From Chloroflexota bacterium (GTDB lineage Bacteria > Chloroflexota > Limnocylindria > Limnocylindrales > CSP1-4), in NCBI GenBank assembly GCA_021786915.1, contig JAJYMP010000212.1:1-15425 (forward strand): a stretch of DNA of 15,425 nucleotides. Reading direction: 5' to 3'. The position numbers and the translations under genes are program-made. Under the pieces are notes generated by a model. It saw only the letters and a program-made list of their open reading frames with translations. It was not told the origin of the DNA and searched no databases. Of the stretch, positions 8,867-15,176 are shown piece after piece. How positions within the stretch are numbered: the stretch's first letter is position 1; every line of letters begins with the position of its first letter.

Positions 8867-8880
8867 AGTAATCGATTGCG
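8867..8880. promoter_or_regulatory. LacI-type operator O1 (lacI proximal)
   Basis: AGTAATCGATTGCG, with the palindromic core AATCGATT at 8870-8877 centred on CG. It lies immediately downstream of the putative lacI -10 box, which is ideal for autorepression. Confidence 0.8.
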
Positions 8881-8881
8881 C

Positions 8882-8911
8882 AGCCTAGTGGACGCAATGG
8901 CCCCGCGTCAA
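8882..8911 (-). promoter_or_regulatory. Putative lacI promoter
   Basis: On the minus strand, TTGACG (-35, 8906-8911), an 18-base spacer and TAGGCT (-10, 8882-8887). Operator O1 follows directly. Match quality is moderate. Confidence 0.5.
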
Positions 8912-8920
8912 GATCGGGGT

Positions 8921-8934
8921 TGGAAACGATTGCG
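8921..8934. promoter_or_regulatory. LacI-type operator O2 (central)
   Basis: TGGAAACGATTGCG is a weaker copy with an intact right half (GATTGC). Its centre is 54 bp from O1 and 33 bp from O3, about five and three helical turns, which would allow cooperative binding or looping. Confidence 0.6.
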
Positions 8935-8959
8935 CCGTATGGCTCCACTCGGCTGTAAT
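8931..8959 (+). promoter_or_regulatory. Putative promoter of transketolase pair B
   Basis: TTGCGC (-35, 8931-8936), a 17-base spacer and TGTAAT (-10, 8954-8959). The -10 box is part of operator O3 and the -35 overlaps O2, so bound repressor would block polymerase. Confidence 0.55.
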
Positions 8960-8967
8960 CGATTGCA
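8954..8967. promoter_or_regulatory. LacI-type operator O3 (transketolase B proximal)
   Basis: TGTAATCGATTGCA is the best palindrome of the set, with only one mismatched pair between half-sites. It covers the -10 region of the transketolase B promoter. Confidence 0.85.
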
Positions 8968-9031
8968 TTGTAGATCCGAATCTGGGAAGATGGAGGCGCC
9001 CCGGACCGCTCCGCCACGAGGTGTCCACCGA

Positions 9032-12306: not shown

Positions 12307-14187
12307 TTGTCCACCCTACGGCTGACGGTCGGACAGGCGATCGTCCGGTTCATGGCGGCCCAGTACGTCGAGCGCGACGGCGTCGAGAACCGCTTCATCG
12401 CGGGCGTCTGGGGCATCTTCGGCCACGGCAACGTCGCCGGCCTCGGCCAGGCGCTCGAGGAGCTGGGCGACGAGTGCGCGATGCCGTACTACCGGCCCCA
12501 GAACGAGCAGGCCCAGGTCCACCTCGCCTCCGCCTACGCGAAGCACAAGAACCGGCTCCAGACATTCGCCTGCATCAGCTCGATCGGCCCCGGCGCCACG
12601 AACATGGTCACCGGCGCCGCGCAGGCCAGCGTCAACCGGCTGCCCGTGCTGCTGTTCCCGTCCGACTACTTCGCCAACCGCCTGCCCGACCCGGTCCTCC
12701 AGCAGGTGGAGCACCCGGTCGAGCACGACGTCTCCGCGAACGACGCCTTCCGCCCCGTCAGCCGCTACTTCGACCGGATCAGCCGCCCGGAGCAGCTCCT
12801 CTCCTCGCTCCCCGAGGCCTTCCGGGTCCTCACCGACCCGGCCGAGACCGGCGCCGTGACCGTCGCCCTGCCGGAGGACGTCCAGGCCGAGGTCTACGAC
12901 TGGCCCGAGCGGTTCTTCGAGAAGCGCGTCTGGCACGTCCGGCGGCCCGTCCCGGAGCCCGCCGCGCTCGCCGAGGTGGCCGAGCTGATCCGCCAGGCGA
13001 AGCGCCCGCTGATCGTCGCCGGGGGCGGCGCCATCTACTCCGGGGCCGAATCGGCGCTCGACGCGTTCGCCACCACGTTCGGGATCCCGGTCAGCGAGAG
13101 CCAGGCCGGCAAGGGCGTGCTGCCCTGGGACCACGCGTGCAACGTGGGCCCCGTGGGCGCGAACGGCGGCCTCGCCGCCAACCGCCTGGCGAAGGAGGCG
13201 GACCTCGTCATCGCCATCGGCTCGCGCATGGGCGACTTCGTCACCGGGTCGAAGACGATCTTCCAGAACCCGGACGCGAGCTTCGTGGGCATCAACCTCA
13301 ACGGCTTCGACGCCCACAAGCTGCGCGCCGTCCCGCTGATCGCCGACGCGCGCGAGGCGCTGCTCGCCCTGACGGCGGCACTCGCCGACCACCCCGGCAC
13401 CGGGCAGGCGTACCGCGACCGCGTCGCCGACCTCAAGGAGGAGTGGGACGCGCGGGTGGTCTTCCACCGCACCCCCAGCGGCGAGACGGCCGACCTCGCC
13501 CAGCCCGAGGTGATCGGCATCCTCAACGACGCCGTCGGCGGCCACGCCACCGTGGTGTGCGCGGCGGGCTCGCTGCCCGGCGACCTGCTCAAGCTGTGGC
13601 GCCCGGAGGACTCGAAGGCCTACCACCTCGAGTACGGCTACAGCTGCATGGGCTACGAGATCCCGGCGGGCCTGGGCGTGAAGCTGGCCGAGCCCGCCCG
13701 CGAGGTCGTGGTCGCCATCGGCGACGGCACCTACCTGATGCTCAACTCCGAGATCGTGACCGCGGTCGCCGAGGGCATCAGGATCACGGTCGTGGTGTTC
13801 GACAACCACGGCTACCAGTGCATCAAGGACCTGGCCTGGAGCTGCGGCGTACCCCAGTTCGGCAACGAGCTCCGCTTCCGGGACCCGGCCACCAACCGGC
13901 TCACCGGCGGCTACATCCCGGTCGACTTCGCCAAGCACGCCGAGGCGATGGGCGCGATCGGGGTCACCGCGCGCACCGAGCGGGAGATCCGCGACGCGAT
14001 CGCCGCGGCCCGCACCGCCGATCGCACCACCGTCATCCACGTCTACGTCAGCCCCGACAAGCGCGCCCCGGGGTACGAGAGCTGGTGGGACGTGCCCCCG
14101 GCCGAGGTCAGCGGCTCCGGCCTGGTGGTCGCCGCGCGCGCCCGCTACGAGAGGGCCGTTGCGCTCCAGCGCGAGGAGCTGGCGTGA
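12307..14187 (+). CDS. iolD: 3D-(3,5/4)-trihydroxycyclohexane-1,2-dione hydrolase
   Basis: 626-residue TPP-dependent hydrolase that opens the cyclohexanedione ring formed by IolE, giving 5-deoxy-glucuronate. It has the acetolactate-synthase fold in three parts. The N-terminal pyrimidine domain has the TPP-activating Glu in RPQNEQ. The central domain starts around PLIVAGGGA. The C-terminal TPP domain has GDGTYLMLNSEI and FDNHGY. The opening segment GVWGIFGHGNVAGLG and the length match IolD rather than acetolactate synthase. The TTG start follows AGGAGG (12294-12299) at seven bases. The in-frame ATG at 12232 is rejected because it abuts the operator and the putative transcription start. It is coupled by GTGA to the iolE-like gene. 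Confidence 0.93.
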   Translation: MSTLRLTVGQAIVRFMAAQYVERDGVENRFIAGVWGIFGHGNVAGLGQALEELGDECAMPYYRPQNEQAQVHLASAYAKHKNRLQTFACISSIGPGATNMVTGAAQASVNRLPVLLFPSDYFANRLPDPVLQQVEHPVEHDVSANDAFRPVSRYFDRISRPEQLLSSLPEAFRVLTDPAETGAVTVALPEDVQAEVYDWPERFFEKRVWHVRRPVPEPAALAEVAELIRQAKRPLIVAGGGAIYSGAESALDAFATTFGIPVSESQAGKGVLPWDHACNVGPVGANGGLAANRLAKEADLVIAIGSRMGDFVTGSKTIFQNPDASFVGINLNGFDAHKLRAVPLIADAREALLALTAALADHPGTGQAYRDRVADLKEEWDARVVFHRTPSGETADLAQPEVIGILNDAVGGHATVVCAAGSLPGDLLKLWRPEDSKAYHLEYGYSCMGYEIPAGLGVKLAEPAREVVVAIGDGTYLMLNSEIVTAVAEGIRITVVVFDNHGYQCIKDLAWSCGVPQFGNELRFRDPATNRLTGGYIPVDFAKHAEAMGAIGVTARTEREIRDAIAAARTADRTTVIHVYVSPDKRAPGYESWWDVPPAEVSGSGLVVAARARYERAVALQREELA

Positions 14188-15056
14188 GGATCGCGACCGC
14201 GGTCGTCAACTGGAACAACCCCGACATCCCCGATGTCTTCCCGTGGATGCCCTACGGTCAGGCGCTCGACCGCATGGTCGAGGCGGGCTATGACGCCACC
14301 GAGTGGGGCCCGTCGATGCCGACGGACCCGGACGAGCTCCACGAGGCGCTCACCAGCCGCGGCCTCGACCTCGTCGGCGCGTTCGTCGGGCTCGGCTTCC
14401 GCGACGCCGAGAGGCTGGAGCCCGAGCTCGAGCGGGCGCTGGGCATCGCGCGGTTCCTGGCCGCCAACGGCGCCGGGGTGCTGATCGCGGCCGAGGCCGG
14501 CGACGAAAGCCGGCGGGGCGAGGCCGGCCACGTGGACGAGTCCCGCGGCCTGACGGACGGGCAGTGGCGGAGCCTGGCGAGCGGGCTCGACGAGCTCGCC
14601 CGACGCGTGGCGCCCCTCGGCATGCGCCTGGCGTTCCACAACCACGCGGGGACGTACGTCGAGACCCCGGCCGAGATCGCGCGCCTGCTCGACGAGACAG
14701 ACGCGGCGCTCGTCGGCTGGTGCCTCGACGTCGGCCACCTCGCGTTCGGGGGCGGCCTCGCCATGGAGCTCCTCCCGAAGTACGCGGACAGGGTGAAGCA
14801 CGTCCACGTGAAGGATGTGGACGGCCGCGTCCTGGCCCGCGCCAAGGCACACGAATGGTCGTTCGGCCAGGCCCTCGCGCACTACATCTTCCCGCCGCTG
14901 GGACAAGGGATTGCGCAGATCCCCGAGGTCGTGGCAGCGCTCAAGGGCGTCGGCTACGACGGCTGGTACGTGATCGAGCAGGACACCTGCCGCGGCGACC
15001 CCACGCCGACCGCGAAGGCGAACCGCGCCTATCTCGAGGGATTGCTCGGCGCCTGA
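14184..15056 (+). CDS. iolE: Inosose dehydratase-like TIM barrel
   Basis: 290-residue xylose-isomerase-like TIM barrel, most likely 2-keto-myo-inositol dehydratase supplying the substrate of IolD. The start RIATAVVNWNNPDIPD matches the IolE opening. Putative metal-site segments follow: TEWGPS, FHNHAGTY, CLDVGHL, HVHVKDV and VIEQD. The GTG start overlaps the iolD stop (GTGA, 14184-14187) with GAGGAG upstream, so the two are translationally coupled. It is distinct from the second IolE-like protein at 6701-7681. The iolE assignment rests on coupling to iolD and overall similarity. An inosose isomerase (IolI-like) role is the main alternative. Confidence 0.85.
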   Translation: MRIATAVVNWNNPDIPDVFPWMPYGQALDRMVEAGYDATEWGPSMPTDPDELHEALTSRGLDLVGAFVGLGFRDAERLEPELERALGIARFLAANGAGVLIAAEAGDESRRGEAGHVDESRGLTDGQWRSLASGLDELARRVAPLGMRLAFHNHAGTYVETPAEIARLLDETDAALVGWCLDVGHLAFGGGLAMELLPKYADRVKHVHVKDVDGRVLARAKAHEWSFGQALAHYIFPPLGQGIAQIPEVVAALKGVGYDGWYVIEQDTCRGDPTPTAKANRAYLEGLLGA

Positions 15057-15075
15057 CGCATCGGCCACCTCCGCA

Positions 15076-15095
15076 CGGCGCCCATGACGGTGCCG
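15076..15095 (+). terminator. Possible hairpin after iolE
   Basis: Seven-base stem CGGCGCC / GGTGCCG with one G-T wobble and a six-base loop, 20 bases after the iolE stop. No T-tract follows, so termination is uncertain; it may instead stabilise the message end. Confidence 0.3.
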
Positions 15096-15132
15096 GATGC
15101 GGCCCGGCTGCGACACCGGTTGCGAAACCGTG

Positions 15133-15161
15133 TTGACATGTGGACACCGCGCGACTAACGT
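15133..15161 (+). promoter_or_regulatory. Promoter of the terminal lipoprotein gene
   Basis: Consensus -35 TTGACA (15133-15138), a 17-base spacer and TAACGT (-10, 15156-15161). It is the best sigma-70-type match in the window and is followed at once by operator O5. Confidence 0.7.
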
Positions 15162-15162
15162 C

Positions 15163-15176
15163 TGCAATCGATTACG
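15163..15176. promoter_or_regulatory. LacI-type operator O5 (lipoprotein/importer)
   Basis: TGCAATCGATTACG contains the palindrome AATCGATT and lies just after the -10 box, covering the expected transcription start. Confidence 0.82.

Follow-up and report, generated by a model that had tools for sequence, protein, structure and literature searches.

We find that a LacI-family regulator encoded in a 15,425-nt stretch of a contig (JAJYMP010000212.1; hereafter the window, 71.5% GC) from a Chloroflexota bacterium represented by environmental DNA is, as judged from sequence, very probably a repressor of inositol breakdown that is IolR-like and autoregulated; we put the probability of this reading at roughly 0.83. 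The gene (lacI, 7678-8721, minus strand) encodes a 347-aa protein with the LacI/GalR domains PF00356 (55.6 bits, cut-off 27) and PF13377 (131.2 bits, cut-off 26.5). Five palindromic sites in the window are predicted to be its operators. Because these sites are conserved and are placed at pathway genes genome-wide in relatives, we read them as one regulon centred on lacI and the inositol genes. An earlier prediction made on this DNA (the original prediction) had joined lacI, the second of two split transketolase pairs (tkt2), iolG/iolD and a lipoprotein-like sugar-binding protein gene in this way, and conservation and placement in relatives support it.

All five sites are intergenic. In the region between lacI and tkt2, predicted operator O1 (AGTAATCGATTGCG, 8867-8880) lies on the lacI side, a weaker predicted site O2 (TGGAAACGATTGCG) follows at 8921-8934 with 18.8 bits, and predicted operator O3 (TGTAATCGATTGCA, 8954-8967) on the tkt2 side has the top score, 25.6 bits. 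Predicted operator O4 (TGTAAACGATTACC, 12217-12230) lies in the iolG/iolD divergon, and predicted operator O5 (TGCAATCGATTACG, 15163-15176) lies at the binding-protein gene. The five words and their shared central-CG pattern are all found at the positions originally given, with four matching TGNAAWCGATTRC exactly and the site at 8867 carrying one mismatch. What had been counted as four promoters are in fact three intergenic regions, which face lacI, tkt2, iolG, iolD and the binding-protein gene.

The motif was to be given up if it proved as common in random or coding DNA as in promoters, and this is not the case. Allowing up to one mismatch, TGNAAWCGWTTNCA is found four times in the window, and none of 300 dinucleotide shuffles contains it; allowing up to two, it is found five times, versus a mean of 0.2 and a maximum of 2 in 300 such shuffles. 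At three mismatches the signal is lost (7 in the window; shuffle mean 3.1, maximum 10, with 12 of 300 shuffles reaching 7). The pattern as first written likewise gives little signal with up to three mismatches on both strands (18 matches versus a mean of 10.75). A matrix built from the sites scores them at 18.8-25.6 bits, while no other word in the window exceeds 8.1 bits, the score of one in coding DNA. Since the matrix was built from the same five sites, their own scores are inflated, and it is the gap in score together with conservation that serves as evidence. The five sites are real, far beyond chance.

In aligned promoters of related Chloroflexota, the operators appear as conserved islands, with four of the five sites kept and that at 8921 not kept. 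A contig scan with the LacI protein returned 17 loci; L001-L008 come from Chloroflexi and share 64-95% identity in the best segment (L005 and L006 being separate contigs of one metagenome-assembled genome), and L009-L017, at 32-39% identity, were excluded. In the lacI/tkt2 region, L002, L007 and L005 keep an equivalent of O1 with one to three changes, just after a lacI -10-like box, and an equivalent of O3 that is identical in L005 and L007 and has one change in L002. The O1 equivalent is the sole remaining site at lacI in L001. O4 is identical in L001, L002, L007 and L056, while O5 is identical in L001 and L002 and reads CGCAATCGATTACG in L156 and L004. Across all five aligned sequences, GTGTAAACGATTACC is identical in the iolG/iolD region, as is GCAATCGATTACG in the binding-protein region. 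In L003, L004, L008, L153 and L159, lacI is divergent to iolD rather than to tkt2, and two sites are found there. All nine relatives whose ortholog is 64% identical or more have sites at lacI, one in G001 and two in each of the other eight, whether the divergent gene is tkt2 or iolD. The second transketolase pair is only a fragment in L001 (9689-9796) and L002 (9434-9739), and operators beside lacI remain in both, one in L001 and two in L002.

Putative promoter boxes were read by eye next to the operators. At lacI (8882-8911, minus strand), a partly conserved candidate promoter consists of a -35 box TTGACG (8911-8906), 18 nt and a -10 box TAGGCT (8887-8882), with the operator immediately after it. 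The same arrangement is suggested at iolD (12188-12217, plus strand; TTGCGC, 18 nt, TAGAGT, operator) and at the binding-protein gene (15133-15161, plus strand; TTGACA, 17 nt, TAACGT, operator). The candidate tkt2 promoter (8963-8991, plus strand) would use TTGCAT, which overlaps O3, followed after 17 nt by a weak -10 box, GAAGAT. Thus the original claim that four of the five sites abut or overlap a -10 box stands for 8867, 12217 and 15163; the site at 8954 instead overlaps a -35-like hexamer, and that at 8921 has no clear box. The candidate tkt2 -10 box overlaps the ATG at 8990 assigned to tktN2, and this start is therefore in doubt: if the tkt2 boxes are right, the start probably lies further downstream. 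A GTG at 9032 offers an alternative. An automatic terminator scan of the three intergenic regions found nothing.

A scan of relatives, which had been proposed as a check, was carried out with the relaxed motif GNAAWCGWTTNC on nine related genomes totalling 31.4 Mb, all drafts of unstated completeness, some in short contigs. There are 60 places, versus 5 for the backward control. When these were placed by hand, 43 of the 60 fell at lacI, at iolG/iolD, at iolB, between a DHDPS-family aldolase gene and iolB-transaldolase-iolA, at PfkB/Gfo genes or at binding-protein genes. Another four lie at folate/corrinoid one-carbon genes (G001, G002, G004 and G006). The core YAAWCGWTTR is found 53 times in G001-G007, and 62 times if the YAATCGATTR places of G008 and G009 are included; 44 of these 62 have G...C flanks. 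Placement, not raw counts, is the evidence here, because simple arithmetic predicts a few such cores in every genome.

Further genes marked by the motif in relatives are iolB, a PfkB kinase gene, the DHDPS-family aldolase gene and the iolB-transaldolase-iolA operon, and to all of these the regulon would extend. The iolB of L032 passes its curated NCBIfam cut-off, and iolA lies downstream of a site via iolB-transaldolase in L001, L007, L050 and L157. The placement of iolA in the window differs from that in these four loci. The divergon of DHDPS-family aldolase and iolB-transaldolase-iolA is repeated (L032:3828-8705, L050, L157 and L064), and its transaldolase/FSA-type protein may stand in for the usual IolJ aldolase step. 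A second class of palindromes, with a GATAATCGATTR core and set apart by its flanks, is present in L031, L037, L040, L042, L055 and L066 and probably belongs to another regulator; one copy adjoins a transketolase N-half homolog in G001.

The motif and this regulator also go together across genomes. The predicted operator has the form expected for a LacI/GalR protein, an even palindrome with a central CG upstream of the regulated genes. As for IolR-type regulators, operators at iolG/iolD, iolB, iolB-transaldolase-iolA and lacI-iolE are kept in relatives, in addition to the site at the regulator's own gene. In a survey of 61 genomes (G001 and 60 relatives), the nine in which a LacI ortholog reaches 64% identity or more contain 4-10 copies of YAATCGATTR; the count is 0-5 in the 31 others that are 2 Mb or larger (Mann-Whitney p = 3.8e-6, uncorrected for kinship). 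For this comparison 21 genomes below 2 Mb were excluded, and 8 of the 31 others carry a homolog of 49-53% identity. One 11-residue segment is found in 117 of 120 listed homologs of the window LacI, and a variant 11-residue segment in the remaining three. Among named homologs of this LacI, the nearest, at 98% identity, belongs to a Candidatus Limnocylindrales bacterium; Limnocylindrales is an order of Chloroflexota.

Taken together, we propose that a LacI dimer binds the palindrome TGYAAWCGWTTRCA. The bound protein would sit at the -10 box or start point of the lacI, iolD and binding-protein promoters, and over the -35 box at tkt2, and in all four cases would stand directly in the way of RNA polymerase. 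Release of LacI from the DNA would come about through a sugar-like ligand derived from inositol.

The palindromes might instead serve mainly another LacI paralog, or several paralogs with a generic motif. Two or more LacI-domain matches (2-14) are present in all seven genomes searched, and in L001 a second LacI gene lies ~3.5 kb beyond the end of the binding-protein gene. A central-CG palindrome is moreover generic to the family (PMC4052901), and another LacI protein could share the operator. We nevertheless regard this explanation as unlikely. G004 has only two LacI-domain proteins, and 6 of its 8 sites are at inositol or one-carbon genes; the recognition helix of the second protein reads SKTAVSF, versus STATVSR in the LacI studied here and APSTVSK in LacI2. 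The presence of sites at this lacI in all nine ortholog genomes points the same way. Simple repression, rather than activation or dual regulation, is suggested by the sites at 8867, 12217 and 15163: each overlaps a -10-like box or comes straight after it, where repressors typically bind. An activator has a precedent in FixV, a LacI/GalR protein thought to sense an inositol derivative, which activates nifA2 (PMC3538637), and we consider it very unlikely here. That an AT-rich word of this kind arose by chance in GC-rich DNA has next to no probability. Independent bases at the GC content of the window would by arithmetic yield ~17 GNAAWCGWTTNC places in 31.4 Mb, close to the 12 of the 60 places that have no fitting gene, and this explanation runs counter to the 60 places observed versus 5 in the backward control, the 43 at one pathway, the conserved islands and the shuffle result; for the four conserved sites it is already countered by conservation and placement.

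The three operators at lacI were originally taken to suggest cooperative or looping repression. The spacings on which this rested, 54 and 33 bp, hold in this window alone, and the latter is near the peak at 32 bp, the preferred spacing of paired LacI sites (PMC4052901), so that a local 33-bp pair may operate in this strain. A repression loop or cooperative array of three operators is distinctly unlikely, however, as none of the three relatives aligned there (L002, L007 and L005) has O2. In relatives, the paired sites at lacI stand 53, 76, 88, 89, 110, 138 or 161 bp apart, and the outer pair in the window is 87 bp apart; such varied spacings preserve, by arithmetic, no helical phase. Each of the two conserved sites is close to one of the two divergent starts. 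With the middle site missing and spacing that varies from 53 to 161 bp, three-site looping was rejected as a conserved feature.

Several observations weigh against an IolR-like repressor acting through these sites. Within the window the operators do not cover a complete iol pathway: the region upstream of an apparent operon of a 3-hydroxyacyl-CoA-type dehydrogenase (HAD) gene and iolA (2233-2511) has no operator, its best matrix score being -2.4, and the matrix scan found no site for the first transketolase pair (380-2232). An automatic sigma-70 scan reported no promoter at threshold in any of the three intergenic regions, and the promoter boxes consequently rest on conservation and reading by eye. 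The regulator's best NCBIfam matches are RbsR and PurR, both under cut-off, and the ligand is for this reason not readable from its sequence. In G034 a core precedes, by 89 bp, a LacI gene that shares just 35% identity, and up to five YAATCGATTR cores are present in genomes that have no close ortholog. The genomes are related to one another, and their motif counts are thus not independent. One of the 60 places is ambiguous, lying near the end of contig C9 of G005 beside a UroD-family piece, and the 12 places without a fitting gene also count here. When compared with a 30-protein panel, those 12 gave no match except at L043, where iolA is matched at 32% identity at a distance of 2.3 kb and the gene nearest to the site is for an MFS transporter; the L044 place is near a contig end. 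These 12 fit background, because ~17 places are expected by chance.

In this lineage, the same LacI-type repressor may also link the breakdown of inositol with a corrinoid/tetrahydrofolate module that demethylates O-methyl-inositols (pinitol-like plant cyclitols), an extension drawn from gene neighbourhoods that we hold tentatively and at less than even odds. Demethylation is suggested because in some relatives the motif fronts genes of corrinoid/UroD-type methyltransferases and tetrahydrofolate metabolism: G004 and G008 have a site in front of an iolE3-Gfo-corrinoid-UroD gene run, and in G001, G002 and G006 a site lies between TIM barrel-FolD-FTHFS genes and a methyl-tetrahydrofolate methyltransferase-like gene. 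In the proposed route, a UroD-fold protein would move the methyl group from O-methyl-inositol to a corrinoid protein, and a second methyltransferase would pass it on to tetrahydrofolate for processing by FolD and formate-tetrahydrofolate ligase. The inositol thus freed would enter the iol pathway. Speaking against demethylation, UroD-family genes are present in six of the nine genomes (not in G002, G003 and G007), 5 of 11 UroD-family places are on a motif-bearing contig, and just 6 of 38 B12-binding_2 places are on such contigs. Gene neighbourhood and fold suggest a candidate corrinoid O-demethylase system in relatives.

The fold is that of UroD in protein P0121 from the relatives. The UroD-fold family has no Pfam entry and gave 2303 matches; at its loci (L172:3400-7337, L173:2148-6042, L174 and L175) the gene adjoins a B12-binding protein gene, a Gfo/Idh gene and an iolE-like gene in three of four cases, L175 being without a B12-binding match. 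A sequence search against solved structures returned no match at E up to 1, Pfam none at 1e-6 (L155) or 1e-5 (P0121), and NCBIfam none at 1e-20 (L155) or 1e-30 (L172). In a literature search for corrinoid or demethylation with inositol or pinitol, no such bacterial system appeared among the matches listed, as judged by titles and the starts of abstracts, and the word 'inositol' occurs 0 times in PMC10418091.

Among the remaining genes of the window, the curated NCBIfam cut-offs are passed by iolG (inositol 2-dehydrogenase, 11076-12071, minus strand; TIGR04380, 374.4 bits, cut-off 355), iolD (a thiamine pyrophosphate-dependent ring-opening hydrolase with a TTG start, 12307-14187, plus strand; TIGR04377, 896.1 bits, cut-off 715) and iolA/mmsA (3539-5083, plus strand; TIGR01722, 601 bits, cut-off 448.5). 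They are missed by the transketolase halves and by both iolE-like genes: a TIM-barrel gene at 6701-7681 (minus strand; PF01261), which overlaps the end of lacI and reaches 184.8 bits with TIGR04379, and a second gene at 14184-15056 (plus strand; 216.2 bits), both under the cut-off of 290. The HAD gene is at 2512-3522, and a Gfo/Idh/MocA oxidoreductase gene, assigned by Pfam and NCBIfam searches, is at 5504-6655 (minus strand). The second transketolase pair comprises an N-terminal half, tktN2 (8990-9940, plus strand; PF00456), and a C-terminal half, tktC2 (9937-10860, plus strand; PF02779 and PF02780). A homology map with 30 query proteins found no iolB, PfkB kinase or transaldolase in the window. 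The binding-protein gene starts at 15274 (plus strand) and is cut by the contig end at 15425; as far as 15405, it matches the binding protein of L032 at 93% identity. Its reading frame meets a stop at 15421-15423, some 49 codons in; as the final ~20 bases do not match L001, this stop is probably an artefact of the contig end rather than the sign of a real short gene.

By sequence, the closest solved structures to the regulator are RbsR, PurR and CcpA, with a match that spans the DNA-binding and sensor domains (residues 8-337 at most). Their targets and ligands differ. The moc type of demethylation is of the oxygenase kind. FixV homologs resemble the present regulator in belonging to the LacI/GalR family and in their gene neighbourhood: they adjoin mocDEF, genes that break down rhizopine, a methylated derivative of inositol, and in some rhizobia also a TIM-barrel gene. 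FixV differs in activating nifA2 (PMC3538637). IpsA of Corynebacterium is likewise LacI-type with a palindromic site, responds to myo-inositol, and is released from DNA by it in vitro; however, IpsA is needed for the formation of inositol-derived lipids and has sites at the ino1 promoter, whereas the targets here are breakdown genes; the likeness of the sites is one of palindromic form (PMC3899939). A survey of the LacI family lists inositol regulators, IolR, as seven groups and describes them much as seen here, with an even central-CG palindrome, the inositol pathway, frequent autoregulation and sites mostly 30-140 bp upstream (PMC4052901). Its Chloroflexi set is a single taxonomic group, and the likeness to IolR is one of description, not of the survey's motifs or gene lists. 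In contrast to the regulators as described there, the motif here or in relatives is also carried by split transketolase, transaldolase and one-carbon genes.

The regulon had been put forward as an undescribed one of inositol type. LacI-type inositol regulators are already known from the cited work (PMC4052901, PMC3899939), while no paper in the collection searched combines 'Limnocylindr' and 'inositol'. It looks like a fairly ordinary sugar-alcohol regulon of the already known LacI type, and the one-carbon extension is the part that may be new. For a Chloroflexota order, the analysis supplies an operator motif that can be put to use and a list of its targets, and it places an unnamed UroD-fold protein family beside inositol genes. 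If the one-carbon link is true, it would predict that methyl-inositols are handled by way of corrinoids. Starting from a motif found in 15 kb, the analysis reached pathway genes that occur in relatives and are missing from the window; such regulons can therefore be reconstructed from short metagenome contigs.

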